Shown one piece after another: positions 6,432-27,226 of a DNA stretch of 27,226 bases. Under the pieces are notes generated by a model. That model was given only the letters and a program-made list of their open reading frames with translations, did no database searches and was not told the origin of the DNA. Where the stretch lies: positions 1 through 27,226 of IMG/VR virus record IMGVR_UViG_3300029319_000394, one strand, 5' to 3'. Numbering within the stretch: the first letter of the stretch is position 1; the number at the start of each line of letters is the position of its first letter. The DNA comes from a virus. The translations under genes and the position numbers were made by a program.

Positions 6432-7862
6432 ATGAATTATAAATTTAGAATGAAACCTTACAAGCATCAATTGACTGCATTAGAAAAGTCATGGAACAAA
6501 GAAACGTATGCATATTTTATGGAGATGGGTACCGGTAAAACAAAAGTATTAATCGATAACATGTCAATGTTATATGATAATGGTAAAATAGATAGCGCTT
6601 TAATTATTGCACCGAAAGGTGTTGTTAAAACTTGGTACGAACAAGAACTACCTACACATTTACCAAAACATATAGAGAATGTGACTGTATTATGGCAGTC
6701 AAATATTACTAAAAAACAACAAGTTTCATTAGACAACCTAATGAAGATCGGCACAGAGCTCCACATTTTGATTATGAATGTGGAGGCTCTTTCTACTAAG
6801 AAAGGTGTTGATTTTGCATTTAAATTTTTAAACTCACATAATGCTTTAATGGCAATAGATGAGTCTACAACAATAAAAACACCAAGTGCAAAACGTACGA
6901 AAAGTATAATTAGTTTAGGTAAGATGGCTAAGTACAGAAGAATTATGACTGGTTCTCCTGTAACTAAAAACCCTTTAGATTTATATACTCAATGTTTATA
7001 TCTTGATCCTTATCTGTTAGACTTTCAATCTTATTATGCATTTAGAAATAGATACGCTGAAATGAAAACTTTAAATGTTAGAGGCAGATCAATACAAGTT
7101 GTTAATAAGTTTATTAATTTAAATGAATTATCAGATAAATTACAAAGTTTTTCATATAGAGTATTAAAAGAAGATTGCTTAGATTTACCTGAAAAAATAT
7201 ATATGAAGAGATATATATCTCTTACACACGATCAAATTAAAGTATATGATCAAATGAAGAAGACAGCTCTTGCTACATTAAATGGTAAAACTACTAGTAC
7301 AATGACTGTATTAACTCAATTAATGAGATTACAGCAAATAACTTGCGGCCACTTTGTAGCAGATGATGGATCTACACAAGACATACAAAGCAATAGAATA
7401 AAAGAATTGATGGATGTATTAGATGAAATAGAAGGTAAAGCTATTATATGGGGCCATTGGCAAAGAGATATAAAAAATATTATAAAAGCAGTTGTAGATG
7501 AATATGGTCCAGGGTCCGTGGTTGATTATTATGGATTAACACCACAAGATGAAAGACAAGATAACATACGTAAATTTCAAAATGATCCTAAATGTAGATT
7601 CTTAGTTGGTACACCTCAAACCGGTGGATACGGTATTACACTTACACAAGCAAACACTGTTATATATTATTCTAATGGTTATGATTTAGAGAAAAGATTA
7701 CAATCAGAAGACAGAGCACACAGAATAGGTCAAAAGAAAAATGTTACTTACGTTGATTTAATATGTGAAGATACTGTTGATGAAAAGATAGTGAAAGCTC
7801 TACGTAAAAAAATTAATGTAGCTTCACAAGTCTTGGGTGAAGAATTAAAATCTTGGATTTAA
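6432..7862 (+). CDS. SNF2-family (SF2) DNA-dependent ATPase/helicase
   Basis: A 476-residue SF2 motor and the only plus-strand gene. The N-terminal RecA lobe has a Q-motif-like P-Y-K-H-Q (9-13), Walker A M-G-T-G-K-T-K (32-38), motif Ia I-I-A-P-K-G-V (58-64), motif II D-E-S-T in place of DEAH (near 143-146) and motif III T-G-S-P (near 173-176). The C-terminal lobe has G-G-Y-G-I-T-L-T-Q-A (near 398-407) and motif VI R-L-Q-S-E-D-R-A-H-R-I-G-Q, the hallmark of SNF2 proteins. No nuclease, chromo or DNA-binding domain is attached. SNF2 proteins translocate on dsDNA and remodel protein-DNA complexes; here a role in replication, recombination or clearing host proteins is possible but unproven. It is divergent from the replication operon and convergent with the endolysin gene, sharing two stop-codon bases with it. 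Confidence 0.92.
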   Translation: MNYKFRMKPYKHQLTALEKSWNKETYAYFMEMGTGKTKVLIDNMSMLYDNGKIDSALIIAPKGVVKTWYEQELPTHLPKHIENVTVLWQSNITKKQQVSLDNLMKIGTELHILIMNVEALSTKKGVDFAFKFLNSHNALMAIDESTTIKTPSAKRTKSIISLGKMAKYRRIMTGSPVTKNPLDLYTQCLYLDPYLLDFQSYYAFRNRYAEMKTLNVRGRSIQVVNKFINLNELSDKLQSFSYRVLKEDCLDLPEKIYMKRYISLTHDQIKVYDQMKKTALATLNGKTTSTMTVLTQLMRLQQITCGHFVADDGSTQDIQSNRIKELMDVLDEIEGKAIIWGHWQRDIKNIIKAVVDEYGPGSVVDYYGLTPQDERQDNIRKFQNDPKCRFLVGTPQTGGYGITLTQANTVIYYSNGYDLEKRLQSEDRAHRIGQKKNVTYVDLICEDTVDEKIVKALRKKINVASQVLGEELKSWI

Positions 7863-8338: not shown

Positions 8339-8532
8339 TATTTAAAAAATATTCCTAATGCGAAGAGTACAGCAGATCCCGCTGCTGCTAAGAGAACCCA
8401 ATAGACTTTATCTATCTTACCGCCCAACTTCTCGACGTCTTCATGTACATGTTTCAAATTTTTTTTGACACCTGATATGTGTCCGTACAAAGATAAAATA
8501 TGTTCTCTAGTATTTTTTGGTTGCATTGCCAT
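8338..8532 (-). CDS. Holin-like single-pass membrane protein
   Basis: A 64-residue protein with a charged, amphipathic N-terminal half (about 8-42, rich in His, Lys and Glu) and one C-terminal transmembrane helix (about 43-63: Y-W-V-L-L-A-A-A-G-S-A-V-L-F-A-L-G) ending in Lys. This resembles XhlA-type or other one-pass phage holin components. Size, topology and its place directly before the endolysin with TAATG overlaps on both sides support a lysis role. A second in-frame ATG two codons in is possible. No sequence motif proves holin activity. Confidence 0.75.
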   Translation of the reverse strand: MAMQPKNTREHILSLYGHISGVKKNLKHVHEDVEKLGGKIDKVYWVLLAAAGSAVLFALGIFFK

Positions 8533-11500
8533 TAAGTTCTTCTCGCTATTTCTCGTTCTTCTGGGGATAGTAATGCCTGTTCACTACGTGTCAAGTTGTT
8601 AATTTGGTTATTTTGTCTAGTAAATAAACGTTGATTAGGCATTGGCATTTGTGGTAGTGCAGATTGACCTTGTGGATCAGTGTCTGGTAAAAAGTCATCT
8701 AAACTTATATTCCAATCTTGATATAAATTTAATTTATACATTTGATCTTCCATTTGACCTAATGTACTTTCAGCTTGATTATAAACATTTGATACTCCAC
8801 CTTCTTTTGATAGATCTTCAAATCTTTCAATAATTTTTCTTGAAGGAAAGAATGGTATAAACTCACCAGATGTTATTTCATTATAGATAGATCCCAAACC
8901 TCTTTTATCAAAAATTTCATAAATATCATCATCTTTAATTCCTAATGCTTTTGCATTATTAATACTTGTTAACATTTTTTTCTTAACTTCAAATAAAGAT
9001 TTATTAGCTGTAAAGTATCTATCTATTACATCTGAAGGTGTTCTCATATCAACTGGATCAATCTCTCCTGTAAATAATTTTCTAGAATTAGATACACCTT
9101 GTTGGTATTCAAACAGTTTAAATCCTAAAGATTTTTTAGGATCAACTTTTATTAATCTAAAACCAAATATACCTGCAAGCTCGTAAGGTATTTCGTATAT
9201 TTCAGCTCCTCTACCTGGTTCACCAGTAATTGCTTTTTTAGTTCTTTCAAATGGTTGTGTTGTTGGTAATAAAGTTTTACCAAGATGTTGCATAATTATT
9301 GTAACTTTTTCTGGTCCTGGTGTTTGATCATTATATAATTGTTTACCTTCTCTTGTTCTACCATTTCTGCCCCATATATCCATGAACGCTTCTGTATAAA
9401 TTGATTCTGATATAAATGGTGAAGCTGTTTCACCGGCAGCTTCTGCAATACCTTCTACAAAACCTTTTAATAATATTTCTTCGTTATCAATACCTTCTTG
9501 AATATTACGTAATAAAGATTGAAAAGGTCTTGTTAATGTATCATAAACATTATTTTTAGACCAATCTATATAAAATAATTCACCTGTTTCTGGATCTCGT
9601 GTGTATATTTTTTGTGAACTTTTAGCCCATGGTGCTACAAAATCATTTGCTGCATCTGCTTCTTCGTTTGATACACCAAATATAGCTTGTGATCCTTTTG
9701 TTAATCCATATGGAATTATACCCATAGCACCCACCATTCCAACAAGTCTTTTCATAGCAAGACCTTTCATAGGATTTGTGCTCGTAATTGGATTTAAACT
9801 TCTTGTTACAGGATCTCTTAAATCTTTTGCTACTTGTTCAAATATACCAAAGCCTGTTCTAAATACTTCTGATGGCCATGACATAAAATTACCAAAAGGT
9901 GATACCCTTGCAGCTCTTACAAACTCACCAACCTTTGCATAATTTGGCACTGTGTCTTGTACAATTTGTGCTACCTCTTGTTTTAATGCTTGTGGTGATA
10001 TTTTTATGCCTGCTTTTGCATATCTTTCACCTCTTTGTATTAACTGCACTTCATAATTTATAATCTTCCAAATATCATCTTCTGCAACATATAAATCTTG
10101 CATAAATTTACCGGCTTTTTTAATACCTCTACTAGTTTTTTTACCTAGTGAATTAATCATAGGAAATAAAATACTATCAGTTGCAAAATTACCTTCACCA
10201 AATCTTACATCTTTCATTAGATTACGTAGATCTCCAAGCCTTACGTTTGTGTTTACAATACCTAATTCTAAATATTCTCTATATTTTTCTTGTGATAATT
10301 CTTTTCTTGGTCCACCTACTTGCACTGTACCAAAAGCATTGTTCATAGCTTGTTTAAATACTCTTGGGTCCGTGAACATTGTTCCGTTAGCAAATGAAAA
10401 TGCACTAGAACTTAAAAAGTTTCTTATGTGTGTAGGCACAGATAGAATTGTTTTTGCGTATTGTGCACCAGCTTTAGGTGTTAATAATAAATTACGCCAT
10501 GCCCATGAAAATGTTTTACCTATTGGTCCACCAGTTTCACCTCTCATAAAATCTTGTATCTTTGATACGTTGGTAAAACTTTCTGCTATCTCTCTTGTTG
10601 TATACGTATTAGATAATCTATTTACTAATACACCATCTTTAAAATATTCTTTTACATAATCATCCATCTTAACTATTTCTGGTTCGTTACCGAAAGCTCT
10701 TTTAGCTGCAAGTGGTGTAGAATGAAAAAAACCTCTTGCACCAAGTGGTGTTTCTGCTGTAGCTTTTGCTTTAGCTACTGCATCTGCATCTAGTATTTCA
10801 TCAAACAATTGATTTTTTCTAGCTACAATTGACAATCTATTCATACCTTCAAAGATAGAGTGTCTAACATCATTTATTTCACCAAATAAATCTCTAAATA
10901 TTTTTGATCCTTTACCTATAACTTGTATTTCTTTTTTACCACCAGGTAGTTTTTTCTCTATTGTTTGTGCAAATGTTTTTAATGCAAATGCATCATCGGC
11001 TGATCTAGATAAATTTTGATATGCGAACGTTGGTAGTCTATCTCTCTTTGGGTCCATCTTTCTAACCTGTTTGATAATATCATTTACCATACCTTCTGCT
11101 TCTAATTCTGTAATAGGATTCTTATTTTTAGCTGCATATCTCATAAATAATTGAATAGCTCTATCTACGTCTTGTCTTGCTGGTTTATACTTTTGTAAGA
11201 AACCTGCTTCTGCATTTTCAAATATTTCAAATGTATTACCAATATAATTTTTAACTCTATTACCCATTATCTTACGTAAATCTACACCTACACCCGCTGG
11301 TAAATCTACTTTAGCACCAGGTCCACCTGCTGTTATATTTAATATATTAGCAAACTCTTCTCTTGTTTTAACAATAGATCTTAATATATTTTGTGAAACT
11401 TCTGTACCTTCTCTTTTACCTAATCTTTTTTGAGTTTGTTGTGTTATCTCTTTTGCTAACTTTGCATCAACAGCTGATTTATTTAAATCACCTTTAAATA

Positions 11501-12563
11501 ATCCATCATCTAACAAAGTTAAAAATTTTTTTCTTTCTTCCGCAGATGATGCATTAAAAAATTTTCTAAAGTCTGGAAATACTTTATCTACTTCTCTATC
11601 TATTCTAGCAACTTGTTCCTCAGCAAAGTTTACATCTCTCATTTCTCTTGCTTTTTGTGTTTTCTTTGCTTCAGCAACCTCTTGTGGTTTTGTCCCTCTA
11701 AATCTAAATGCAGCACTAAATTTATCTAATGCTTGGTCAAATAAACCACTGCTGTATGCAAGTTCTTTACCACGTTTAGCTAATGCTTTTGCTGCAACTC
11801 CTGTACCATAAACAAAAGGTGTAAGAAAAATAGACTCTGCACCAAATTTTGCTCTGTTCATTAATTTTCTAGCTGCGTCTTCTGATGGATCATCTCTAAC
11901 ATCTCTATCTAAAGCAAGAGCAGCATCAGGTCCAAACAGATCACTTATGTTTCCTATTTTTTCTGTATCTACAACAAGTGTTTCACCGGCTGCACCACCC
12001 AATACAACAGCACTAAATCTTTGTGCACCCGATAATTTATTTAATTCTTCAGCTTTTTTTCTACCTTTTACTGCGTTAGGGTTTTTAAAACTTACAAGCT
12101 TACCAGCTTTCTTTGCTTTTAATGCTTTAGTTGCTAGTGTTGTTGCAATTTTTGCACCTGCTCCTCCTGGTATACCTATTTGTACTAAAGCTTCTGATAA
12201 TCTACCTATAGCTCTTTGTTCTGCTATTTCTTCTAATGGATTAAGTTTATCAAAAAATGCTTCTACCTGTGCAGCTGTATTTGTATCTGCTCCAAGATCA
12301 ATGAGCTCTGCACCAAGAGATACTACTCCTTCTACAGTTTTTATAAGACCAGAACCAAGACCTGCAACAAATGCTGTTGCACCTGATACTTCATTGTTAT
12401 CTTCTGCTTCAGGTAAATTTATATCTGTTGCACCTATACCTTCATCTAAACCTTGATATAAATTTTTATTTATATCATTTTCGTTTTTATTTTTTTCTTT
12501 TTCTTGAACTTTACCACCTGATATTGTGGGATTGTTTTTAGGATCGTATGGATCGAATGCCAT
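8532..12563 (-). CDS. Large internal virion / DNA-ejection-type protein
   Basis: A 1343-residue protein, the longest in the window. The N-terminus is polar and K/E/N-rich (1-55), followed by Ala/Gly-rich hydrophobic stretches (about 60-95 and 125-165). The middle is long, basic and helical, with many R and K. A second hydrophobic segment lies near 930-955 (V-G-M-V-G-A-M-G-I-I-P-Y-G-L). The C-terminal part contains the acidic D-D-D-I-Y-E-I-F-D-K-R-G-L-G near 1205-1220 and a Q/N-rich tail. No lytic transglycosylase or protease motif was seen. Size, composition and location among virion genes match the giant ejection proteins of podoviruses (T7 gp16-like role), which cross the envelope with the DNA. 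That role is inferred from context rather than homology. An AGGAG site precedes the ATG. Confidence 0.75.
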   Translation of the reverse strand: MAFDPYDPKNNPTISGGKVQEKEKNKNENDINKNLYQGLDEGIGATDINLPEAEDNNEVSGATAFVAGLGSGLIKTVEGVVSLGAELIDLGADTNTAAQVEAFFDKLNPLEEIAEQRAIGRLSEALVQIGIPGGAGAKIATTLATKALKAKKAGKLVSFKNPNAVKGRKKAEELNKLSGAQRFSAVVLGGAAGETLVVDTEKIGNISDLFGPDAALALDRDVRDDPSEDAARKLMNRAKFGAESIFLTPFVYGTGVAAKALAKRGKELAYSSGLFDQALDKFSAAFRFRGTKPQEVAEAKKTQKAREMRDVNFAEEQVARIDREVDKVFPDFRKFFNASSAEERKKFLTLLDDGLFKGDLNKSAVDAKLAKEITQQTQKRLGKREGTEVSQNILRSIVKTREEFANILNITAGGPGAKVDLPAGVGVDLRKIMGNRVKNYIGNTFEIFENAEAGFLQKYKPARQDVDRAIQLFMRYAAKNKNPITELEAEGMVNDIIKQVRKMDPKRDRLPTFAYQNLSRSADDAFALKTFAQTIEKKLPGGKKEIQVIGKGSKIFRDLFGEINDVRHSIFEGMNRLSIVARKNQLFDEILDADAVAKAKATAETPLGARGFFHSTPLAAKRAFGNEPEIVKMDDYVKEYFKDGVLVNRLSNTYTTREIAESFTNVSKIQDFMRGETGGPIGKTFSWAWRNLLLTPKAGAQYAKTILSVPTHIRNFLSSSAFSFANGTMFTDPRVFKQAMNNAFGTVQVGGPRKELSQEKYREYLELGIVNTNVRLGDLRNLMKDVRFGEGNFATDSILFPMINSLGKKTSRGIKKAGKFMQDLYVAEDDIWKIINYEVQLIQRGERYAKAGIKISPQALKQEVAQIVQDTVPNYAKVGEFVRAARVSPFGNFMSWPSEVFRTGFGIFEQVAKDLRDPVTRSLNPITSTNPMKGLAMKRLVGMVGAMGIIPYGLTKGSQAIFGVSNEEADAANDFVAPWAKSSQKIYTRDPETGELFYIDWSKNNVYDTLTRPFQSLLRNIQEGIDNEEILLKGFVEGIAEAAGETASPFISESIYTEAFMDIWGRNGRTREGKQLYNDQTPGPEKVTIIMQHLGKTLLPTTQPFERTKKAITGEPGRGAEIYEIPYELAGIFGFRLIKVDPKKSLGFKLFEYQQGVSNSRKLFTGEIDPVDMRTPSDVIDRYFTANKSLFEVKKKMLTSINNAKALGIKDDDIYEIFDKRGLGSIYNEITSGEFIPFFPSRKIIERFEDLSKEGGVSNVYNQAESTLGQMEDQMYKLNLYQDWNISLDDFLPDTDPQGQSALPQMPMPNQRLFTRQNNQINNLTRSEQALLSPEEREIARRT

Positions 12564-13402: not shown

Positions 13403-14337
13403 TATCTATTTCCCATTAATGCAAATGGATTTTGATTTGCAACAGCTCCATATATACCAGCTAATGTTGTACCAACTCCTAATGCAGTCTGTAATGGTGT
13501 AGGATTTGGAACGTTACTTGTTTGTGTTTGTCCCGGATATCCACCCATAATACCTGCAACTTGTGCTGCATATCTATCTAATTGTTCTTGTGGTTGGAAT
13601 GTTGCCATTCTTGTAGCTTCTCTTGTAGCGTCTAGTTGAGCTTGTGCTTGTGCCTGGTTCAATGCGCCCAACGTTCCTAATTGTGAAATATCTCCTCGTT
13701 GTAATCCAGGCACAAGTGATGCTAGACCTAGCTGCGTTTGTAGATCAGCAGCTCTTTGAGCCTGTGCCTGACCAAAACCTTGTTGTAATAATTGAGCTTG
13801 TAGTGCTGCTCTGTTTCTATCAGAACCAGTATCATATTCTGCTAGTTGAACTCCTTCTCTTCCTCCACCAAATGCGCCTGACTGTACCGCTCTATCTCTA
13901 ATAGACTGTCTATTAATAGCTGCGTTTCTGTCAAATTCTGAAAGTGTTGCATCAATAACTTGTTGTTGATATGGCGACATATATTGTTGAGTTTGTGCCG
14001 CTGTCATTGGTCCTGTTAAATTCTGTGCTGCTGTTAAATATGGTTGAAAAGAACCAACACCTTGTGTTGCTAAAGTTTGTGCTTGTCTTTGTAATGCATC
14101 TTGTTGTGCTACTTGTGGTGCAAGTCCTGCTAAACTGTCTTGTCTAATTCCAAATTGTGTAGCTGCATCTTGTCTTGCTTTAAATTGATCAGCTGTTTCA
14201 CCTGTTTGTTGTGTTAATGATCCTATCCCTCTTGTAACTACTGGTACGGCTGTTTGAGCCGTGATCTGTGTTGCAAGATCTTTACCTAAATCTTCTACAA
14301 ACTGTGCGGGTAAATTTCTTACTGTTTCTGTTGCCAT
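13402..14337 (-). CDS. Gln/Ala-rich internal virion protein
   Basis: A 311-residue protein rich in Gln and Ala, mostly predicted helical. Landmarks are Y-M-S-P-Y-Q-Q-Q-V-I-D-A-T-L near 119-132, the segment S-G-A-F-G-G-G-R-E-G-V-Q-L-A-E-Y near 152-167, and a C-terminal P-N-P-T-P-L-Q-T-A-L-G-V-G-T-T-L-A-G-I-Y hydrophobic end. I recognise this pattern from many marine and other podovirus-like genomes, where it sits with internal core or ejection proteins. It overlaps both neighbours by TAATG. The virion role is inferred from family and position; its biochemical function is unknown. Confidence 0.75.
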   Translation of the reverse strand: MATETVRNLPAQFVEDLGKDLATQITAQTAVPVVTRGIGSLTQQTGETADQFKARQDAATQFGIRQDSLAGLAPQVAQQDALQRQAQTLATQGVGSFQPYLTAAQNLTGPMTAAQTQQYMSPYQQQVIDATLSEFDRNAAINRQSIRDRAVQSGAFGGGREGVQLAEYDTGSDRNRAALQAQLLQQGFGQAQAQRAADLQTQLGLASLVPGLQRGDISQLGTLGALNQAQAQAQLDATREATRMATFQPQEQLDRYAAQVAGIMGGYPGQTQTSNVPNPTPLQTALGVGTTLAGIYGAVANQNPFALMGNR

Positions 14338-16358
14338 TATATGACTTCTCCTAATCTTTGTGATGTTTGAAACATGTTACGTGCGCCATCTAAGCCTTGC
14401 GATTCTTCTGATACGTCACCTCCGGCTTCAAGGTTTTTCATCATATTATACATAACTTCTGCGCCTTTGTCTATATCTCCATCTCCTGCATTTCTAACAG
14501 CTTCAGCTGTAAATACAAACTCATTCTTTGATAATCTTGCAGGCACATCGTCTGCTTTTTCCATTCTTCCTATTGGTACAAAACCACCTTCAGCTCTTAA
14601 ATCCATTTCTTTGCCATCTAAATCTAATAAAGGCATAGTCTTTTTTGCTACTGGTTCAACGTCTCCACCTTCAGCCATAAATCTTGGTGCTGTATATGAA
14701 TAAGGATCTCTTCTTATAGCTGCAATATCTATACCTTCGCCTCTGTATGGTTCTCCTTCATCTTCTTCTTCAGGAGCACCAACACCTAATAATGGTAATG
14801 CAGATGCTATACCTATTGCTTTTAGTGCACTGATACCACCTTTACCATCTCCTAATAAAAAATTACCTGCTTTATTATCAGTTATAGCTTTTGATAATCT
14901 TTTTAAAAGATTAGGGTCTTTTTCTACTGTTTTAATAATTTGATCACCAACTGCTTTGTCTATTCCAGCTTGAGTTGCTACATTTGATTTTGTTGCAGCA
15001 CTAAATGCAGGAAAATCATCATACAATGGTGCACTAGATGATGTTGGAATTTTTGCTACATCTCTTGCATTTGGAAAACCAGAAGTTGCAAATTCATCTA
15101 TATTTACATTTGGATTTACAAGATCTGTAACTCCTCCTGATGCAACATCGCTTGCAACTCTTGCTCTGCTAGCATCAGTTGCTACTGACGATTGTTGTGC
15201 TCCTTGAGCCGGGGCCATTGTAGCTAGAGCTCCACTTAATGCTGCCGATCTTAATATACCTTTTGCGTCTAAATCTTGACCAGATGCTAATTGTAAACCA
15301 CCTTGTGTTAGTCCTGATATAGCTGCTTGTCTCATAAAAGGACTAGCACCAGCCATAAATCCTGTGCTACCAATAGCATATGGTGCATAAAGTGCTATTG
15401 CTGTTTGTACGTATGGATTCTTTAATAATTTTTTTCTAGTTCTATTTACTTTAGAACCAATTTTTTTAACTACTTTAGTTGCTTTTTTAATAATACCACC
15501 AACAAAATAATTTTGTCTTGCAACTTCTGTATCTGCAATACCACCTTCAGCCATAAATCTATAAGCTATAAAAGGATCTTGTGTTGTTGTTGGTACATTA
15601 GAAGCTGCTGCTGCGTTTGCTGCTGCTTGTTGTTGTGCTAGTAATTGTTGTAATGTTAAAACATTGTTACCATCACCATCATTATCTTGATTAATTGTAT
15701 TACCATATGCATCTATTGTTCCAGCCATTCTTTGAGACATATAATCTTCATAGTTTTTAAAAGTTTTTTTGCCAGCAGGCACAACTTTTTGATTATAAAA
15801 ATCTAAATTATTTAAAGGACCAAATTTACTAACAAATTTTCTTGCTAAATTAAAAGGTGTAGGAATATTACTAAAAAAATTTGCAATTGGATTTTTCTTT
15901 TTTCCTATATTTTCTACTTGTCTTCTATTAAAATCTCTGATTGCTCTACTTCTATTATAATCTTGTTGAGCTTTTGTATCTGTTACTTGATAATCTCCTG
16001 TTCCTCTGTCAGTTGTTCCCACCGTATCTTTATCGCCTCTACTTCCACCCCCACCTTCAAAACCACCAGGGTTATTTCCACCAGGTCCAAAGTCTCCTTC
16101 TAAAGAAGGTAAGCCACCAGGGCCTCTATTTGGTTTACCATCTAATGATCCATATAAATTTAAATTTACAAGTATGTCTTGTTCTTCGGGTGTAATATAA
16201 GCTAACTTTGCTGTAGGTGTATTTGGTGATGATTTTGCAATTTTTGGCACAGTTACCATTTCAGAAGGCATGTAGTTCATAACACCTGCTTGTTCTACAG
16301 GTTTCTCACTACCTTTTTTATACATCTGTCTTGCTTGTTGTGCGTTTGTGATTGCCAT
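14337..16358 (-). CDS. Minor virion protein with repeated MAEGG motifs
   Basis: A 673-residue modular protein. The N-terminus is disordered, followed by a Gly/Pro-rich linker (about 75-125). A basic helical region follows, then F-M-A-E-G-G with R-Q-N-Y-F-V-G-G (near 268-288) and a Lys/Arg-rich stretch (290-315). Next come hydrophobic Ala/Gly-rich segments (about 315-385), a second F-M-A-E-G-G near 560, and R-A-E-G-G near 587. The C-terminal module D-D-V-P-A-R-L-S-K-N-E-F-V-F-T-A-E-A-V-R (near 598-617) followed by G-D-G-D-I-D-K-G-A-E-V-M-Y is shared by many phage structural proteins. It is probably an ejected or core-associated protein, given its neighbours and the basic/hydrophobic patchwork. 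No enzymatic signature was seen. Confidence 0.72.
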   Translation of the reverse strand: MAITNAQQARQMYKKGSEKPVEQAGVMNYMPSEMVTVPKIAKSSPNTPTAKLAYITPEEQDILVNLNLYGSLDGKPNRGPGGLPSLEGDFGPGGNNPGGFEGGGGSRGDKDTVGTTDRGTGDYQVTDTKAQQDYNRSRAIRDFNRRQVENIGKKKNPIANFFSNIPTPFNLARKFVSKFGPLNNLDFYNQKVVPAGKKTFKNYEDYMSQRMAGTIDAYGNTINQDNDGDGNNVLTLQQLLAQQQAAANAAAASNVPTTTQDPFIAYRFMAEGGIADTEVARQNYFVGGIIKKATKVVKKIGSKVNRTRKKLLKNPYVQTAIALYAPYAIGSTGFMAGASPFMRQAAISGLTQGGLQLASGQDLDAKGILRSAALSGALATMAPAQGAQQSSVATDASRARVASDVASGGVTDLVNPNVNIDEFATSGFPNARDVAKIPTSSSAPLYDDFPAFSAATKSNVATQAGIDKAVGDQIIKTVEKDPNLLKRLSKAITDNKAGNFLLGDGKGGISALKAIGIASALPLLGVGAPEEEDEGEPYRGEGIDIAAIRRDPYSYTAPRFMAEGGDVEPVAKKTMPLLDLDGKEMDLRAEGGFVPIGRMEKADDVPARLSKNEFVFTAEAVRNAGDGDIDKGAEVMYNMMKNLEAGGDVSEESQGLDGARNMFQTSQRLGEVI

Positions 16359-20675: not shown

Positions 20676-21695
20676 TTACCTCGCAGTTGCTGGGATATTA
20701 TTAGATCCTACGATTGATTGACCAAATGCCATGAAGAGATATTCTCCATCTCCATTTAAACCTGAAGCACTTCTTATTTTGAAACCATTTGATAAAAAGT
20801 CTACATCAGCACCTGAACTTTCTGCATTATTATTTTCAGCATCTAAAACTGCTTGATTAGGATTTAAAGCATCTCTTTTATTATCAAAAATTCCCCAACT
20901 GTTTGCGCTATCTGTTCTTTTAAACATAATCCAAGATGGTGCAAATCCACAATAAACAAACGTATTATCAGATGCGTCTATTCCAGTATATGAGCCAAAC
21001 TTGCTAAAACCAGTTTTTTCTGCAAAGCAGTAGGCAATCATATCATCTCCATTACCATTACTACCATTAGAACTTCCTAATGAAAAAACACTTGAAGTTG
21101 GTATTGTGCTATTCCATCTTGTTGCACCTGTTGCTTTTGCATTATTTAAATTTAATCTAATAAATTCTGAACCAGCTAAAGCATTATGCCAAGTTATCCA
21201 ATCATCAGAATCATCTCTATTTTTAACAATAACCATATCTAAAGCCTGCCCTAATCCATGACCCACAGTAGCATTAGCACCTGTACCTGTCCATTTAACA
21301 ATACTAAATCCTGCTGTTGTATTAGCAGATACAGTTGAGTTTATAGAGCCATCTGAATTTGATGAACCTTGACCATTTGCTTTCCAGTTCCATGATGCGT
21401 ATGTTTGACTATTTTCATTTACTCCATTATCAGCTCCATTTGTAAAACCATCACTATCAAAAGATGAAACAATACCAGATAAAGTTTCTTCAGCATTAGT
21501 GCTATCTGAAGATATTCTTTTAGTCACTCCTCTAACTGCATCTACAAGATTATGAGAAGATGTTGAGCTTCTTTCTTTTATCCAAATCAAATCAGGTTGA
21601 AATCCAACTCCTGTAATTGCATTTGTTGAGCCATTTCCAGTATAAAGTTTAGTATTAAAATAGTCTGTAGATTTATTAATTGTTGTATAAGCCAT
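20676..21695 (-). CDS. DUF7483-like fibre / receptor-binding protein, copy B
   Basis: A 339-residue beta-rich virion protein. It starts A-Y-T-T-I-N-K-S-T-D-Y-F-N-T-K-L-Y-T-G-N-G-S and contains G-V-G-F-Q-P-D-L-I-W-I-K (30-41), G-V-T-K-R-I-S (56-62) and T-Y-A-S-W-N-W-K-A near 98-106. Two further W-I/I-V-K type strands follow, with Y-L-F-M-A-F-G-Q at the C-terminus. It is paralogous to the product at 24161-25207, with matching blocks along the whole length. I recognise the architecture from marine phage fibre operons, where it is usually only annotated as a DUF (DUF7483-like; family number from memory). A host-surface binding role is inferred from context. Confidence 0.7.
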   Translation of the reverse strand: MAYTTINKSTDYFNTKLYTGNGSTNAITGVGFQPDLIWIKERSSTSSHNLVDAVRGVTKRISSDSTNAEETLSGIVSSFDSDGFTNGADNGVNENSQTYASWNWKANGQGSSNSDGSINSTVSANTTAGFSIVKWTGTGANATVGHGLGQALDMVIVKNRDDSDDWITWHNALAGSEFIRLNLNNAKATGATRWNSTIPTSSVFSLGSSNGSNGNGDDMIAYCFAEKTGFSKFGSYTGIDASDNTFVYCGFAPSWIMFKRTDSANSWGIFDNKRDALNPNQAVLDAENNNAESSGADVDFLSNGFKIRSASGLNGDGEYLFMAFGQSIVGSNNIPATAR

Positions 21696-21696
21696 A

Positions 21697-22986
21697 TTAT
21701 AAATTTAATCCTTTTGTTGATAACGCGGTATAGCCAGTTGGTACATCATATTCAAAAATTCCTATTCCACTTGCGTTAGTTCCTGCACTAGATACTGCTG
21801 TTGTTCCAAAATAACCATTACCGAAGTTTGCCTGACAATAACTAGAATGTGTTGTAGCATCACCCCATGCAAAAAAATAAGTTCCAGCAGTTATTGTTAT
21901 CGCTCCTGTGCTTGTAGTTGGATCAGCACTATTTTGCCATGTTCCATTTTTACTAAAAAATAATCTGTTATTATCTAAATCCATAGCTACACCAATAATA
22001 TCATTTTGTGTCCAAGTATTCCCACTCCATGAAATATTAGAATTATTATTTCTTACATATCCTGTATTGTCATAATAACCCCAAGAAGTAGATGTACTTC
22101 CTAATTGAGCAGACGCAGATATTGTTGGAGATTGTGTAATACCTACAAGTTGTCTATAAGGTGTAGCAGAGCCACCATTGTGTTTCAATTCAAAATAATA
22201 TTTACCAGAAGATGCTGCTAAAGTTGATGTGTTCCAAGTTTCAATACTAGTACCACCACTATTTAAAGCAGTATTACCAGAACTAAATGTTGAACTAGCA
22301 TAATAATTATCTAAAGGATTCCATGTAGCAAAAACATTACTTGGACAATCTTCTGTTTTTGTACAAGTACCAGTTAATGTAAAATTATTTCCATTACCAG
22401 AGTGGTCTGTGCCTGTATTACCATCTTTTAAAATAAAATACCCATTAGTTCCATAAGTTACACTTGGAGCAGTATTTATTTTCCATTCACCAGTTGTTGC
22501 ATCTGTTGAGCCGAATACTGTTGGGTCATAAGCTGTTCCATCTACAAAATGAAAATGTGACATAACACATTCTAAATTATCATAAGAACTAAGACCACCA
22601 CCATAAGTATGAATATAATGCTCTGCACCACCACCATTATAGTTTTGAGCATCAACTGTTATTGATGTTTTTACACTTTCGCCATTGTAATAAAGTGTTC
22701 CAGTTCCACTACTCACTTTTAAATGAATATGATACCAAGCATTTACATCTCTCATATAGACTGTTGGTGAAAATCTTGTGTTTCCATTATTTCTATAAAA
22801 AGTAATGTTGTTTGGTGTAGTATCTCCTTGAAAAAATAAACCACTTGGATCACTATCACTAATACTCCAAAGATAAGGAACATTAGTAGTTGTTGGTGCA
22901 AAATTATTTATTTTTACCCAGAATGATACTGTGTAAGTATTACTTGTTGATGGTGTAAAATCTGTTTTACTAAAATATCCTGCCAT
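21697..22986 (-). CDS. LamG-SPRY adhesin / fibre protein, copy B
   Basis: A 429-residue protein with two sugar/protein-binding beta-sandwich domains. Residues about 15-160 resemble a laminin-G/concanavalin A-like fold (Y-T-V-S-F-W-V-K, A-W-Y-H-I-H-L-K-V, G-T-L-Y-Y-N-G-E). A linker with G-T-N-G-Y-F-I-L and D-H-S-G-N-G-N-N-F-T follows. Residues about 255-395 resemble a SPRY/B30.2 domain (G-K-Y-Y-F-E-L-K, R-Q-L-V-G-I-T, I-G-V-A-M-D-L-D-N-N-R-L-F-F-S-K-N-G). The end F-G-N-G-Y-F-G-T-T-A-V-S-S-A-G and F-E-Y-D-V-P-T-G-Y is nearly identical to copy A at 25216-26574. It is probably displayed on the tail to bind glycans or surface proteins. It overlaps the upstream gene by TAATG. Confidence 0.8.
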   Translation of the reverse strand: MAGYFSKTDFTPSTSNTYTVSFWVKINNFAPTTTNVPYLWSISDSDPSGLFFQGDTTPNNITFYRNNGNTRFSPTVYMRDVNAWYHIHLKVSSGTGTLYYNGESVKTSITVDAQNYNGGGAEHYIHTYGGGLSSYDNLECVMSHFHFVDGTAYDPTVFGSTDATTGEWKINTAPSVTYGTNGYFILKDGNTGTDHSGNGNNFTLTGTCTKTEDCPSNVFATWNPLDNYYASSTFSSGNTALNSGGTSIETWNTSTLAASSGKYYFELKHNGGSATPYRQLVGITQSPTISASAQLGSTSTSWGYYDNTGYVRNNNSNISWSGNTWTQNDIIGVAMDLDNNRLFFSKNGTWQNSADPTTSTGAITITAGTYFFAWGDATTHSSYCQANFGNGYFGTTAVSSAGTNASGIGIFEYDVPTGYTALSTKGLNL

Positions 22987-24158
22987 TAGAATTGTCCTCC
23001 TCCTGATGCTCCGTGAGATATAGTAATACTAAACGCACGGTCCGCTGTTTGACCCTCTGCATCCGTTGCTCGAATAGTAAAACTATACGTTGTTGTTTGC
23101 GTTGAGCCTGATTCAGTACCCGTAATTGCACCTGTACTTGTATTTAAACTTGCACCACCTGGAAGTGCTCCAGATTGTACAGCAAAACTTGTAGCATTTG
23201 TTGCAGCAACTGTAAAGTTGATAGTTCCGCCATTTGAAACTGTTCCCAAACTACCTGCTCCAGTTGTCCATGCAGGTGCATCAGATACCGTAAGTAAAGC
23301 TGTTCCTGATCTACATGCAATACCATCGTTATTTTCTAGTCTTAAAAAATATGTACCATCAACTGGTAAAGTAAAGTTTGCAGTAACAGATGTTGCACTT
23401 GAAAATGTCACAGAGTTTGCAGTAACAATCGCACCAGTAGATGCGTTGATTGCATCAACAAAAGGTGGTGTAGAACTGTCCTTAAAATTTGTACCAGTAA
23501 TCACTACGTTAGCAGCATTATTATCAATAACAGTTGGACTGATAGATGAAATAGTTGGAAACGTAATACTATCTGCAAAAGATAATGTCCCTGATCCGTT
23601 AGTCGCGATTACTTGATTAGCTGTGCCATCAGCTGTTGGTAATTTTAAAAATACACCAGTATTGATTGTAGGTGAATTATGTATTGTGTGATTACCCATG
23701 TGTGCATGTGATGAACACTGGTAATATAAAATGCTTGGTGTATCTTTATCTACAGCAATTGTTGTGTGTGCACCTGAATTTCCTGGTGCAGGTGAACTAC
23801 CTGTATTAGTTACTCCAGTTGTAAACTCTGTTGTTTTAGCAGCATCAACATAAAATCTTAATGGGTGTCCAGAGTTAGATGCATCTGATTGATCAAATTT
23901 ATAATAGTATGGTTTTGCTGTATCATTACCTTTTAATTCTATAATTGGTGCTTCAATACCATTTATAACATACGCATTAGAACTACCAACGTTGTAATAT
24001 GGATGACCAGTAGTCTTAGTTGCAACTGTAACTGTGTATACTATTGGAGCAGACGATGATGCATAAGGACTAAGAAATCCTCCACCACCAGAATCTTTAC
24101 TGATGATAAGATTACCGTTTTGGTCCTGAATTGTATCTACTTTTAATATACTACTCAT
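22986..24158 (-). CDS. Tail fibre protein with cupredoxin-like, IPT/TIG and Ig-like domains
   Basis: A 390-residue multidomain fibre. The N-terminal S-S-I-L-K-V-D-T-I-Q-D-Q-N-G-N-L-I-I is a phage fibre anchor pattern. Residues about 38-160 form a cupredoxin-like domain with the ligand set His98 (S-G-H-P-L-R-F), Cys148, His151 and Met154 (Y-Y-Q-C-S-S-H-A-H-M-G), so it could bind copper. An IPT/TIG Ig-like domain follows (about 197-290, I-S-P-T-V-I-D and V-I-T-G-T-N-F). A He_PIG-like Ig domain (292-384) comes last, with L-P-G-G-A-S-L-N and I-R-A-T-D-A-E-G-Q-T-A-D-R-A-F-S. The C-terminal half is homologous to the truncated gene at the right edge. It is probably a receptor-contacting fibre; metal binding is a prediction from ligand spacing. 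Confidence 0.75.
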   Translation of the reverse strand: MSSILKVDTIQDQNGNLIISKDSGGGGFLSPYASSSAPIVYTVTVATKTTGHPYYNVGSSNAYVINGIEAPIIELKGNDTAKPYYYKFDQSDASNSGHPLRFYVDAAKTTEFTTGVTNTGSSPAPGNSGAHTTIAVDKDTPSILYYQCSSHAHMGNHTIHNSPTINTGVFLKLPTADGTANQVIATNGSGTLSFADSITFPTISSISPTVIDNNAANVVITGTNFKDSSTPPFVDAINASTGAIVTANSVTFSSATSVTANFTLPVDGTYFLRLENNDGIACRSGTALLTVSDAPAWTTGAGSLGTVSNGGTINFTVAATNATSFAVQSGALPGGASLNTSTGAITGTESGSTQTTTYSFTIRATDAEGQTADRAFSITISHGASGGGQF

Positions 24159-24160
24159 AA

Positions 24161-25207
24161 TTAATTAGCTGTTGTTGGTACTCCATTTGTTGTTTCATCG
24201 GCTACAAAAGGGTCTTTAGCAAATGCCATAAACATATAAGGTTCGCCACTTTGATTGTGATTTGAATGTGACATCCTTAATTTAAAACCATTACTATAAA
24301 TATCTGATTCGGTATTAGCATCTGGTGCAGTTTCTGCGTAAGTACTATTTGCGTATAAATCTCGCCATTGACCATTAAAATCTCTATTAGGGTCTCTTAT
24401 TAACCAGTCAGCAGTTCCACCTATTTTTTTAGTCATTACAAAATTAGGTTTAAATCCTGTGTAAATAAAAGGGCCCTCTGTATCTCCGTTACCATTATAC
24501 GTTCCTATTTTACAATAACCTTTTACGTTTTTAAAAACATACATTATATAATTTTGTCCACTAGCATTTGTATCAGTATCTGTTCCAATATTAACCACTG
24601 TTGATGTTGGAACAGCATCATTAAAAGCATATGGTTGATTAGAATTTGCAGCACTATTGGAATCCAAAACCATTCTTGTTCTACCATTAAAATCATTACA
24701 CCAAAAAATCCAGCTAGGGGTTTGAGTTCTACTTTTAATAATAAGTGCGTCTGGAGTTCCACCAAGACCATGAGCAATAGTTCCATTTGAACCTGTGCCC
24801 GTATATGCGTATATTCCAAAACCAGATGTTGTATTAATAGAAACTGCTGTTGGTGTTATACTACCTCCAGATATAGCTGAAGTAGTTCCTGCTTTCCAAT
24901 TCCATGATACATAAGTTTGACCATTTTGGTTTGCACCATTGTCAGTGCCAACAGTAAAACCATCAGTACCAAAAGCTGTAAGTTGTTGAGCTTGTGTGTC
25001 TTCAGCGTTATTACGGTTTGGAGATAGTCTTGTAGTTACACCTCTTAAAGAATCAAAAGAATTATGATTTTCAGTACCACTTCTTTGTTTAAGCCATACC
25101 CAGTCAGGTTGATGTCCAACACCTGTAATAGAATTAGACGAACCTGTACCCGTGTAAAGTATAGTATTAAAATATACGTTTGATTTTTTAATTGCACTAT
25201 AAGCCAT
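24161..25207 (-). CDS. DUF7483-like fibre / receptor-binding protein, copy A
   Basis: A 348-residue beta-rich protein paralogous to the 339-aa protein at 20676-21695. Shared blocks are K-S-x-x-Y-F-N-T-x-L-Y-T-G (9-21), G-V-G-x-Q-P-D (30-36), R-G-V-T-x-R-x-S near 55-62, T-Y-x-S-W-N-W-K-A near 102-110, and the Y-M-F-M-A-F-A-K end. Loop regions between the blocks are much more divergent than the blocks, as expected for variable host-contact surfaces. It is the third gene of the first fibre cassette. A receptor-binding role is inferred from context; no enzymatic motif is visible. Confidence 0.7.
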   Translation of the reverse strand: MAYSAIKKSNVYFNTILYTGTGSSNSITGVGHQPDWVWLKQRSGTENHNSFDSLRGVTTRLSPNRNNAEDTQAQQLTAFGTDGFTVGTDNGANQNGQTYVSWNWKAGTTSAISGGSITPTAVSINTTSGFGIYAYTGTGSNGTIAHGLGGTPDALIIKSRTQTPSWIFWCNDFNGRTRMVLDSNSAANSNQPYAFNDAVPTSTVVNIGTDTDTNASGQNYIMYVFKNVKGYCKIGTYNGNGDTEGPFIYTGFKPNFVMTKKIGGTADWLIRDPNRDFNGQWRDLYANSTYAETAPDANTESDIYSNGFKLRMSHSNHNQSGEPYMFMAFAKDPFVADETTNGVPTTAN

Positions 25208-25215
25208 ATTATATC

Positions 25216-26574
25216 CTATCCATAAGTATTTAAATTTTTTGTGTTTAACGCATAATAGCCAGTTGGGACATCGTATTCAAATAAAGATCCATTACCATTT
25301 GAACCAGCAGAAGATATAGCCGTTGTACCAAAATATCCGTTACCAAAGTTTATGCTTTGTTTATTACCATTTCCATAGACATCAAAAAATGGAGTAATTG
25401 GAGTGCCAGCAGCAGGCCAAGACACACTTAACTTACCATTTACACTTGTTCCTGGAAATGCTTGGTTATTATTACCACTACCATCTGCCCATGTGCTATC
25501 ACTTGCACCACCATTTTTTGAAAAATAAATATTTCCATTAGTTATATCTAATGCAACGCTTATAATATCTCCTGCAGTATATGATGACATGTAAGTTGTA
25601 GAAGAACCATTATAGTAAATTTCTCCGTTTTGGTGAATATAAAATGCGCCTGTTCCATAGTAGTAACTACCACCATGTGTTTTATTATTACTAAAAAATA
25701 TACCTAATCTATGTCCAGTTGTTGCTGCTACATCAACTTTAAATTCCCAATACCACTTTCCTGTTTCAGGTGAAATAGTTCCAAATGTCTGTCTGTTAGC
25801 ATTATCAGGGCTAGACATAGTTAAATTAGCATTTGAAAATGTTGGTGTTGCTATACCAATACTTTGTTTAATTACATCATTAGGATTTAAAGTGCAGTAA
25901 TTATTTGATGGTGTATCAAGTGATTGTATTAAATTTCCATTAGTTGTAAAATTATTTGATTGACCTGAAGAGTCTAATCCTAAATTACCAGAGTTTTCAA
26001 ATTTTAAATGAAAACCATTTGTACCCCAAGTAACACCAGATGGTGATTTAAATTTCCAAATATTTGTTGCAGTATTTGTTTCACCAAATACAGTTGGAGC
26101 CACAACACTTCCGTCAACAAAAGCTAGGTGACTTATGTTTCCTTCAAATTGATCTGCGTTATTAGAGTTATCACCAATAGTATGTGCAAGAGCTGAACCT
26201 AATCTTAAAACATAATCTTGTGAAGGATAACTTGTATCATTAAATTCAGTTTCTTGTACTCCATTTACCCAAAGTTTTATTCTATCGGCAGCTGTCGCTT
26301 GTGTAGTATCAAATTGAACAACGATATGATAAAATGCTGATGGATCTCTAAACAATCTTTTAGTTGTTACATAGTATTGTTGAGAACTTACTTTTTCATA
26401 AAATGAAAATCTATTTGCACTATTAAATCTTATATCTGCTCTATTGTTGGAGTCTGTGTATGTGCTAAAAATAGAACCATCACTACCTATATCAGCTCTT
26501 TTTACCCACATAGATAAAGTAAATTTTTTGTTTCCAGTTGGTGTTGAAAATGTATGTGTTAATGTACTTGCCAT
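25216..26574 (-). CDS. LamG-SPRY adhesin / fibre protein, copy A
   Basis: A 452-residue paralogue of the 429-aa product at 21697-22986. The N-terminal LamG/ConA-like domain (about 1-155) has F-T-L-S-M-W-V-K, F-Y-H-I-V-V-Q-F-D and I-K-L-W-V-N-G-V-Q. After W-G-T-N-G-F-H-L-K-F and S-G-Q-S-N-N-F-T, a SPRY-like domain (about 270-395) has G-K-W-Y-W-E-F-K, I-S-V-A-L-D-I-T-N-G-N-I-Y-F-S-K-N-G. The shared C-terminal peptide F-G-N-G-Y-F-G-T-T-A-I-S-S-A-G and F-E-Y-D-V-P-T-G-Y closes it. No signal peptide, consistent with a virion rather than secreted protein. Likely a host-surface binding fibre subunit. Confidence 0.8.
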   Translation of the reverse strand: MASTLTHTFSTPTGNKKFTLSMWVKRADIGSDGSIFSTYTDSNNRADIRFNSANRFSFYEKVSSQQYYVTTKRLFRDPSAFYHIVVQFDTTQATAADRIKLWVNGVQETEFNDTSYPSQDYVLRLGSALAHTIGDNSNNADQFEGNISHLAFVDGSVVAPTVFGETNTATNIWKFKSPSGVTWGTNGFHLKFENSGNLGLDSSGQSNNFTTNGNLIQSLDTPSNNYCTLNPNDVIKQSIGIATPTFSNANLTMSSPDNANRQTFGTISPETGKWYWEFKVDVAATTGHRLGIFFSNNKTHGGSYYYGTGAFYIHQNGEIYYNGSSTTYMSSYTAGDIISVALDITNGNIYFSKNGGASDSTWADGSGNNNQAFPGTSVNGKLSVSWPAAGTPITPFFDVYGNGNKQSINFGNGYFGTTAISSAGSNGNGSLFEYDVPTGYYALNTKNLNTYG

Positions 26575-26583
26575 AATATTATC

Positions 26584-27226
26584 CTAGTTAAACTGCCCTG
26601 AGTTGTTAGCTGCAAAAAGAAATGTTAAACTAAATGCTCGGTCAGCAGTTTGTCCCTCAGCATCTGTTGCTCGTATAGTAAAGTTAAACGTTGTATCCGC
26701 TGAAGCACCAGATTCCGTTCCTGTTAATGTAGACGATCCTGAGCCACTATTCAATGTAATTCCACCAGGTAGTGATCCTGATTGTACAGTCATACCTGTT
26801 GAATTTGTTGCTGTTAAAGTTATTGTTCCTATACTTGAACCTCCAGAAAATGTACCTAATGTCCCTGCTCCAGTTACCCATGCTGGTGCATCAGAAACTG
26901 TTAATACAGCACCTGTTTGCACTGCATTACCATCTGGGTTTTCAATATATAATTTGTATGTGCCATCCACAGGCAAAGTAAATTTAGCTGTAATACTTGT
27001 TGCAGATGAAAATGATACTTCATCAGCTACAACGGTTGCTCCTGTAGAACTATTAATAGCTGTAACCAAAGGCACTGATACAAAATTAGTTCCTGCTATT
27101 GTACAAGTAGTTTGTGTGTTTTCAATTGTTGATGGTGTAATAGATGAAAAAGTTGGTCTTGTTTCTGTAGTTAAAGTAATAGATCCACCAAGGGCCACTG
27201 CTTGACCATTGATTGTAATTTGTCCA
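26584..27226 (-). CDS. C-terminal part of an Ig-domain tail fibre (5' end beyond window)
   Basis: The frame is open to the right edge: upstream of a GTG at 27198 it continues as G-Q-I-T-I-N-G-Q-A, so this GTG is an internal Val, not the start. The visible 213 residues hold an IPT/TIG domain (T-R-P-T-F-S-S-I-T-P-S-T-I and I-A-G-T-N-F) and a He_PIG-like Ig domain (L-P-G-G-I-T-L-N and I-R-A-T-D-A-E-G-Q-T-A-D-R-A-F-S), ending N-N-S-G-Q-F-N. This matches the C-terminal half of the 390-aa fibre at 22986-24158. Whether the missing N-terminus also has a cupredoxin-like domain cannot be seen. It is the first visible gene of fibre cassette A. Confidence 0.8.
   Translation of the reverse strand, partial: GQITINGQAVALGGSITLTTETRPTFSSITPSTIENTQTTCTIAGTNFVSVPLVTAINSSTGATVVADEVSFSSATSITAKFTLPVDGTYKLYIENPDGNAVQTGAVLTVSDAPAWVTGAGTLGTFSGGSSIGTITLTATNSTGMTVQSGSLPGGITLNSGSGSSTLTGTESGASADTTFNFTIRATDAEGQTADRAFSLTFLFAANNSGQFN

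Follow-up and report, generated by a model that had tools for sequence, protein, structure and literature searches.

A predicted cupredoxin-like domain with a conserved type-1 copper ligand set in tail proteins of marine phages

Blue-copper domains are known in cells as electron carriers and as modules of oxidases. In the type-1 copper arrangement, one Cys and two His residues lie in a plane and a Met residue is axial. The occurrence of such a ligand set in a phage tail-fibre gene raises the question of whether a virion protein contains a cupredoxin-like domain and, if so, what a metal site would contribute to the particle. The gene lies in a viral sequence of 27,226 nucleotides (IMG/VR record IMGVR_UViG_3300029319_000394), the whole of which was analysed and is referred to as the window. 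A first-pass annotation of the sequence had assigned His98, Cys148, His151 and Met154 to a cupredoxin-like domain placed at the tip of the fibre. Translation of 22986–24158 (− strand) placed all four residues exactly as described, and the type-1 set was complete, with a C-x2-H-x2-M loop of amicyanin-like length. The features of the gene and its surroundings are listed in Table 1.

Table 1. Tail-fibre gene with the cupredoxin-like domain, its parts and the neighbouring cassette genes (window coordinates).
Feature	Coordinates	Strand	Basis
Tail-fibre gene P0001, 390 aa, carrying the cupredoxin-like domain	22986..24158	-	ORF and phrog_30742
N-terminal segment, residues 1–36, starting MSSILKVDTIQDQNGNLIIS	24051..24158	-	near-invariant among close relatives
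Cupredoxin-like domain, residues ~37–159	23682..24050	-	AlphaFold2, Foldseek, VIA
His98 codon, predicted N-terminal metal ligand	23865..23867	-	sequence and conservation
Ligand loop Cys148-x2-His151-x2-Met154 (CSSHAHM); codons Cys148 23715–23717, His151 23706–23708, Met154 23697–23699	23697..23717	-	sequence and conservation
First Ig-like (TIG-like) domain, residues ~200–292	23283..23561	-	all-beta, pLDDT ~90 in full-length model; TIG-like label by inspection
He_PIG Ig domain, residues 305–381	23016..23246	-	PF05345, E 7e-12
Paralogue A1, truncated by contig end	26584..27225	-	Ig-like part 58% identical to the cupredoxin gene
Cassette gene B1, LamG + SPRY	25216..26574	-	Pfam/PHROGs and paralogue comparison
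Cassette gene C1, DUF7483 tail-fibre family	24161..25207	-	Pfam/PHROGs and paralogue comparison
Cassette gene B2, LamG + SPRY	21697..22986	-	Pfam/PHROGs and paralogue comparison
Cassette gene C2, DUF7483 tail-fibre family	20676..21695	-	Pfam/PHROGs and paralogue comparison

The assignment to a tail fibre held when compared with PHROGs, where the tail fiber family phrog_30742 was matched by the whole protein (E 2e-35) and by the domain alone (E 1e-36). Annotation, family and gene order together point to a virion protein. The gene belongs to a tail cassette, A-B-C (Ig-like fibre gene, LamG+SPRY gene and DUF7483 gene), which occurs twice in tandem at window positions 20676–27225; the two copies are 34–58% identical to each other, and their gene order is kept across many close-relative contigs. 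The N-terminal part of paralogue A1 falls outside the contig. The closest isolates to the window phage, a marine relative of SAR11 phages, were 023Pt_psg01 and the Pelagibacter phages HTVC027P and HTVC023P, with 55–62% identity in the DNA polymerase and 48–64% in one virion protein. Within the protein, residues 1–36 are a probable attachment segment; the cupredoxin-like domain occupies residues 37–159 of 390, and two Ig-like domains lie C-terminal to it. If the fibre is attached by its N-proximal part, as is usual for tail fibres, this N-proximal location contradicts the proposed tip placement for the window gene.

The structure of residues ~37–159 was predicted with AlphaFold2 from an alignment of 73 diverse sequences and reached a pLDDT of 88.4 and a pTM of 0.83. 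In a full-length model obtained with 24 close homologues, the domain was not folded (pLDDT ~45), and the fold result therefore depends on the diversity of the alignment. The best 50 Foldseek matches in the PDB were all cupredoxin folds (best E 4e-3, probability 0.99), mostly copper proteins such as rusticyanin, CuNIR, CueO, laccase and amicyanin, together with a few, such as SufI and factors V and VIII, that have the fold but are not type-1 copper proteins. The VIA matches listed were also all cupredoxin folds, the best having a Z of 7.5 over ~102 residues; a value below 8 can reflect a common arrangement and is not decisive alone, and the list was uniform. TM-scores to known cupredoxins were modest (0.4–0.5). 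The predicted structure is a Greek-key beta sandwich that can be aligned to known cupredoxins, in agreement with the fold that had been proposed. In a DSSP analysis of the model, His98 directly precedes a strand, Cys148 ends one, and the loop leading to the last strand contains His151 and Met154, a topology consistent with that of cupredoxins. At the level of topology, a predicted fold that separates the four residues, which would have spoken against the site, did not arise in this model. In a viral structure library, the matches included tail-fibre proteins of P-SSM2 and P-TIM68. The predicted fold was also matched there by giant-virus 'Beta-sandwich proteins' of Pithovirus- and Marseillevirus-like origin (A0A481Z6J5, A0A481YWX9 and A0A481Z7Q7; Foldseek E 1e-8 to 1e-6).

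Sequence comparison with copper proteins gave a more distant relationship. A single-protein sequence search of the PDB returned no match, and neither Pfam nor NCBIfam contained a model for the domain. At the Pfam gathering cut-off, PF00127 (Copper-bind) matched neither the window protein nor any of the 39 members, 16 of which were matched by PF25489 (At5g54830-like; best E 2e-5), a match given no weight here. A profile of the domain searched against the PDB ranked pseudoazurin first (E 0.11–0.22), aligned across YQC-x2-H-x2-MG. The same profile found short cellular cupredoxins encoded by genomes related to one of a marine Bacteroidetes, with E values from 4e-6 to 2e-5; one of these matched plastocyanin, amicyanin and rusticyanin at E 0.005–0.02, and two matched PF00127 slightly under the cut-off. 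Profile comparison with the PF00127 set plus two cellular intermediates gave P 1.3e-5 with the ligands aligned. Direct comparison with a pure plastocyanin set remained at noise level (score 21.6 against a shuffled maximum of 20.9), as did hhalign against a single amicyanin sequence. Judged by these profiles, the domain is a remote relative of plastocyanins that lies outside PF00127 and is bridged to it by the short cellular cupredoxins.

A short motif can arise by chance, and the ligand set was examined for both chance occurrence and conservation. C-x2-H-x2-M arose in 3 of 20,000 shuffles of the 390-aa protein and was absent from each of 11 further window proteins tested; conservation among homologues, as judged from sequence, speaks more strongly for a real motif. 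A loop-blind profile was made only from the part of the domain that precedes the copper loop, so that the motif was not presupposed, and 261 of the 268 distinct full-length copies that it identified continued into C-x2-H-x2-M. The seven exceptions drop the loop as a unit, and none has a single ligand exchanged (L125, L126, the L087 first copy, L343, L337, and the second copies in L338 and L339); one His may still be in register in the L087 first copy. His98, located 50 residues from the loop, was present in all 264 loop-bearing copies and missing in 7 of 19 copies without a detected loop (Fisher p 2e-9, uncorrected for relatedness; part of the 19 are merely alignment truncations). The ligand string HCHM was found in 287 of 297 copies (287 loci), and six more were half copies.

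In the non-redundant set (<60% identity), Met154 was conserved in 97%, His98 in 94%, His151 in 93% and Cys148 in 90% of sequences, and at the non-ligand His positions 52, 131 and 153 any one residue reached at most 32–58%. The first-pass annotation had named ligand conservation as a check; the four ligands proved conserved among phage homologues, and the free replacement of Cys or His that would have spoken against the site was not seen. The C-x2-H-x2-M loop is present in each of the 47 distinct gp9 C-terminal domains checked. For the first His, a strict 'NHPF' pattern fitted 14 of the 47; the other gp9 domains listed keep this His and read SHPF, AHPF, THPF, QHPF, VHPF or NHPY. The domain carries the conserved His plus Cys-x2-His-x(2-4)-Met pattern of type-1 copper sites, and the four residues, in two distant segments that are kept or lost together, are best explained as a single metal site. 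Two other candidates were set aside. An apparent ligand loss in L131 was an alignment artefact, its sequence reading CVNHSGM, and H151-A-H153 was rejected as an HxH iron site since H153 is not conserved (Gly in 47% of the non-redundant set).

The module is widely distributed. The tblastn searches returned 41 phage records with the window domain, 189 with the cyanophage version and 336 with the gp9 version, these sets overlapping, and two IMG/VR scans gave at least 600 matches each. Some of the homologue search patterns overlapped the copper loop, and others, including that of one IMG/VR scan, were loop-free. The carriers included virion proteins of cyanophages, pelagiphages and Methylophilales phages, with annotated tail fibres in Bellamy, P-SSM2, P-TIM68, Mosig and Melnitz, as well as baseplate wedge proteins (gp7) and gp9 'baseplate wedge tail fiber connectors'. 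At its N-terminus, the Mosig protein carries a domain of the T4 gp9/10 type. In T4-like cyanophages, the gp9 C-terminus consists of this module, with all ligands (L338, L335, L340, L344–L423). Each of 24 phage genomes, selected as carriers, had one to five module matches. In other proteins the module lies mid-fibre, near the C-terminus or in baseplate gp7 or gp9, and these varied positions argue for a module of general use in tails over a tip that binds receptors. The cellular carriers, few in number, included a Candidatus Actinomarina lipoprotein that ends in the domain (L118:3368-4279) and the giant secreted Bacteroidetes proteins L119, L125 and L126; the remaining genome matches may stem from phage sequence within metagenome or single-cell assemblies. 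Two of the giant proteins (L125 and L126, from Flavobacteriaceae) have one intact copy and one in which all four ligands are replaced, the strings reading YDYR and YDFG.

Comparison with known systems places the domain nearest to the PF00127 cupredoxins amicyanin, plastocyanin and pseudoazurin, with which it shares the predicted fold and the His...Cys-x2-His-x2-Met order. The amicyanin loop CTPHPFM, grafted in 2vmj, has the same length as the loop of the phage domain. The phage domain, however, falls below Pfam detection, is larger, has an FDQSDxSN segment before His98, and sits within large virion proteins, whereas PF00127 cupredoxins are free periplasmic carriers. Amicyanin is such a carrier and is encoded with methylamine dehydrogenase genes; the window gene lies in a phage structural cassette, and no methylamine dehydrogenase genes were found among the window proteins scanned. 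By profile, the closest cellular relatives are the short secreted cupredoxins L328–L332, from relatives of marine Bacteroidetes, and the Actinomarina lipoprotein, which have the same ligands (GHPFY ... YYQCSLHGGM) but are exported, by a signal peptide or a lipobox in those with a complete start, and do not belong to virions. The PHROGs families that contain the module, phrog_30742, phrog_27200 and phrog_693 (tail fibre and unnamed families) and phrog_677 (gp9 connector), are mostly annotated as tail or baseplate; they name whole proteins and record no metal site. Iron-binding HxH tail fibres of the T4 gp37 type and of Alteromonas phage R22Y have been described, with a proposed metal role in the ocean (PMC11705849). 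These fibres share with the window protein a metal site in a phage fibre, predicted in the case of the window protein, but the former bind iron through His-x-His pairs and contain no cupredoxin, and the window domain has no conserved His-x-His, its H151-A-H153 being a chance occurrence.

We regard as probable a reading in which a cupredoxin-fold module (residues 37–159) was recruited into the virion proteins of marine phages, retained a mononuclear metal site, likely for copper, and forms a rigid building block. His98, in the loop before a core strand, would meet Cys148, His151 and Met154, which the loop connecting the final two strands contributes, and the site would bind one copper ion. As cytoplasmic copper is scarce, loading would probably take place at lysis or in seawater. 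The bound metal would fasten the ligand loop to the sandwich, giving a rigid, protease-resistant spacer or adhesion module that could serve fibres, baseplate wedges and fibre connectors. The fold, the ligand set and its joint conservation, the placement in tails by annotation and family, and the broad occurrence are results of computation; we infer the identity of the metal, its loading after lysis and, within the claim of copper binding, the stabilising role; that the domain binds copper in the virion seems to us rather likely. The presence of the module in many tail parts and in phages of unrelated hosts favours a generic structural or adhesive role over a receptor-specific lure. Since paralogues without the site persist, the fold does not strictly need the metal, which makes a purely stabilising role less certain; and because the fold tolerates metal loss, copies that retain the site must gain something from it.

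Other explanations of the site were weighed against the same observations. A structural lock by Zn(II) or another ion, in place of a copper site in use, is unlikely, even though cells have more zinc than copper available: Cys-His-His-Met with Met in the axial position is typical of copper sites, Met is a rare ligand of zinc, and the loop matches that of copper proteins. Such a lock would have company in other phage tail proteins, where zinc and iron sites occur, including the HxH iron sites of T4 gp37-type fibres (PMC11705849). The type-1 ligand set is also that of electron carriers and the domain is found at the fibre–baseplate connector gp9, which would suit Cu(I)/Cu(II) cycling at the cell surface as a trigger of adsorption or fibre rearrangement; we consider this improbable, as there is no evident electron-transfer partner, no redox partner or docking surface was identified, and the hosts (Synechococcus, Prochlorococcus, Pelagibacter and Methylophilales) are unrelated.

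A metal-free beta-sandwich spacer, with the four residues conserved for packing or a disulfide, is very improbable. The persistence of paralogues without the ligands would fit it, but the ligands persist or disappear together, the presence of His98 follows that of the distant loop, the neighbouring His residues vary freely, and the single Cys of the domain rules out an intradomain disulfide. We find it hardest to credit a copper version of the 'Ferrojan horse', in which virion copper would lure the particle to a copper or metallophore receptor. An analogous iron proposal exists for marine phages and the domain is common among ocean phages, but it is N-proximal here and also occurs in gp7/gp9, distant from the usual receptor-binding ends, and it is common to phages of unrelated hosts.

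In a search confined to open-access full text, no description of a cupredoxin as a phage virion part was found, and cupredoxins go unmentioned in the cryo-EM papers on cyanophages P-SCSP1u and A-1(L). The nearest idea found in the literature is that of iron in phage fibres (PMC11705849). If copper is bound, a trace metal is needed by a very common class of ocean viruses, which would bear on the stability of virions, on adsorption and on the speciation of copper in the sea. As hundreds of marine phages have the module in their tails, copper may be present in many virus particles of the ocean. More tentatively, and with rather less confidence than in copper binding itself, marine tailed phages could be cuproprotein particles with many type-1 copper domains per virion in fibres and baseplate, a reading that would cover many pelagiphages and a large part of the T4-like cyanophages. 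If so, phage particles would constitute a copper-binding pool in seawater, and copper would be a factor in virion stability or adsorption.

Some further genes of the window were noted. A SNF2-type helicase is encoded at 6432–7862 (+), the other long annotated genes lying on the opposite strand, and resembles helicases of phage replication and defence systems (ZorD, DpdE). Two large proteins encoded at 8532–12563 (1343 aa) and 14337–16358 (673 aa), both on the − strand, had no Pfam match, and the latter had no PHROGs match as well; both are probably internal virion or tail proteins.
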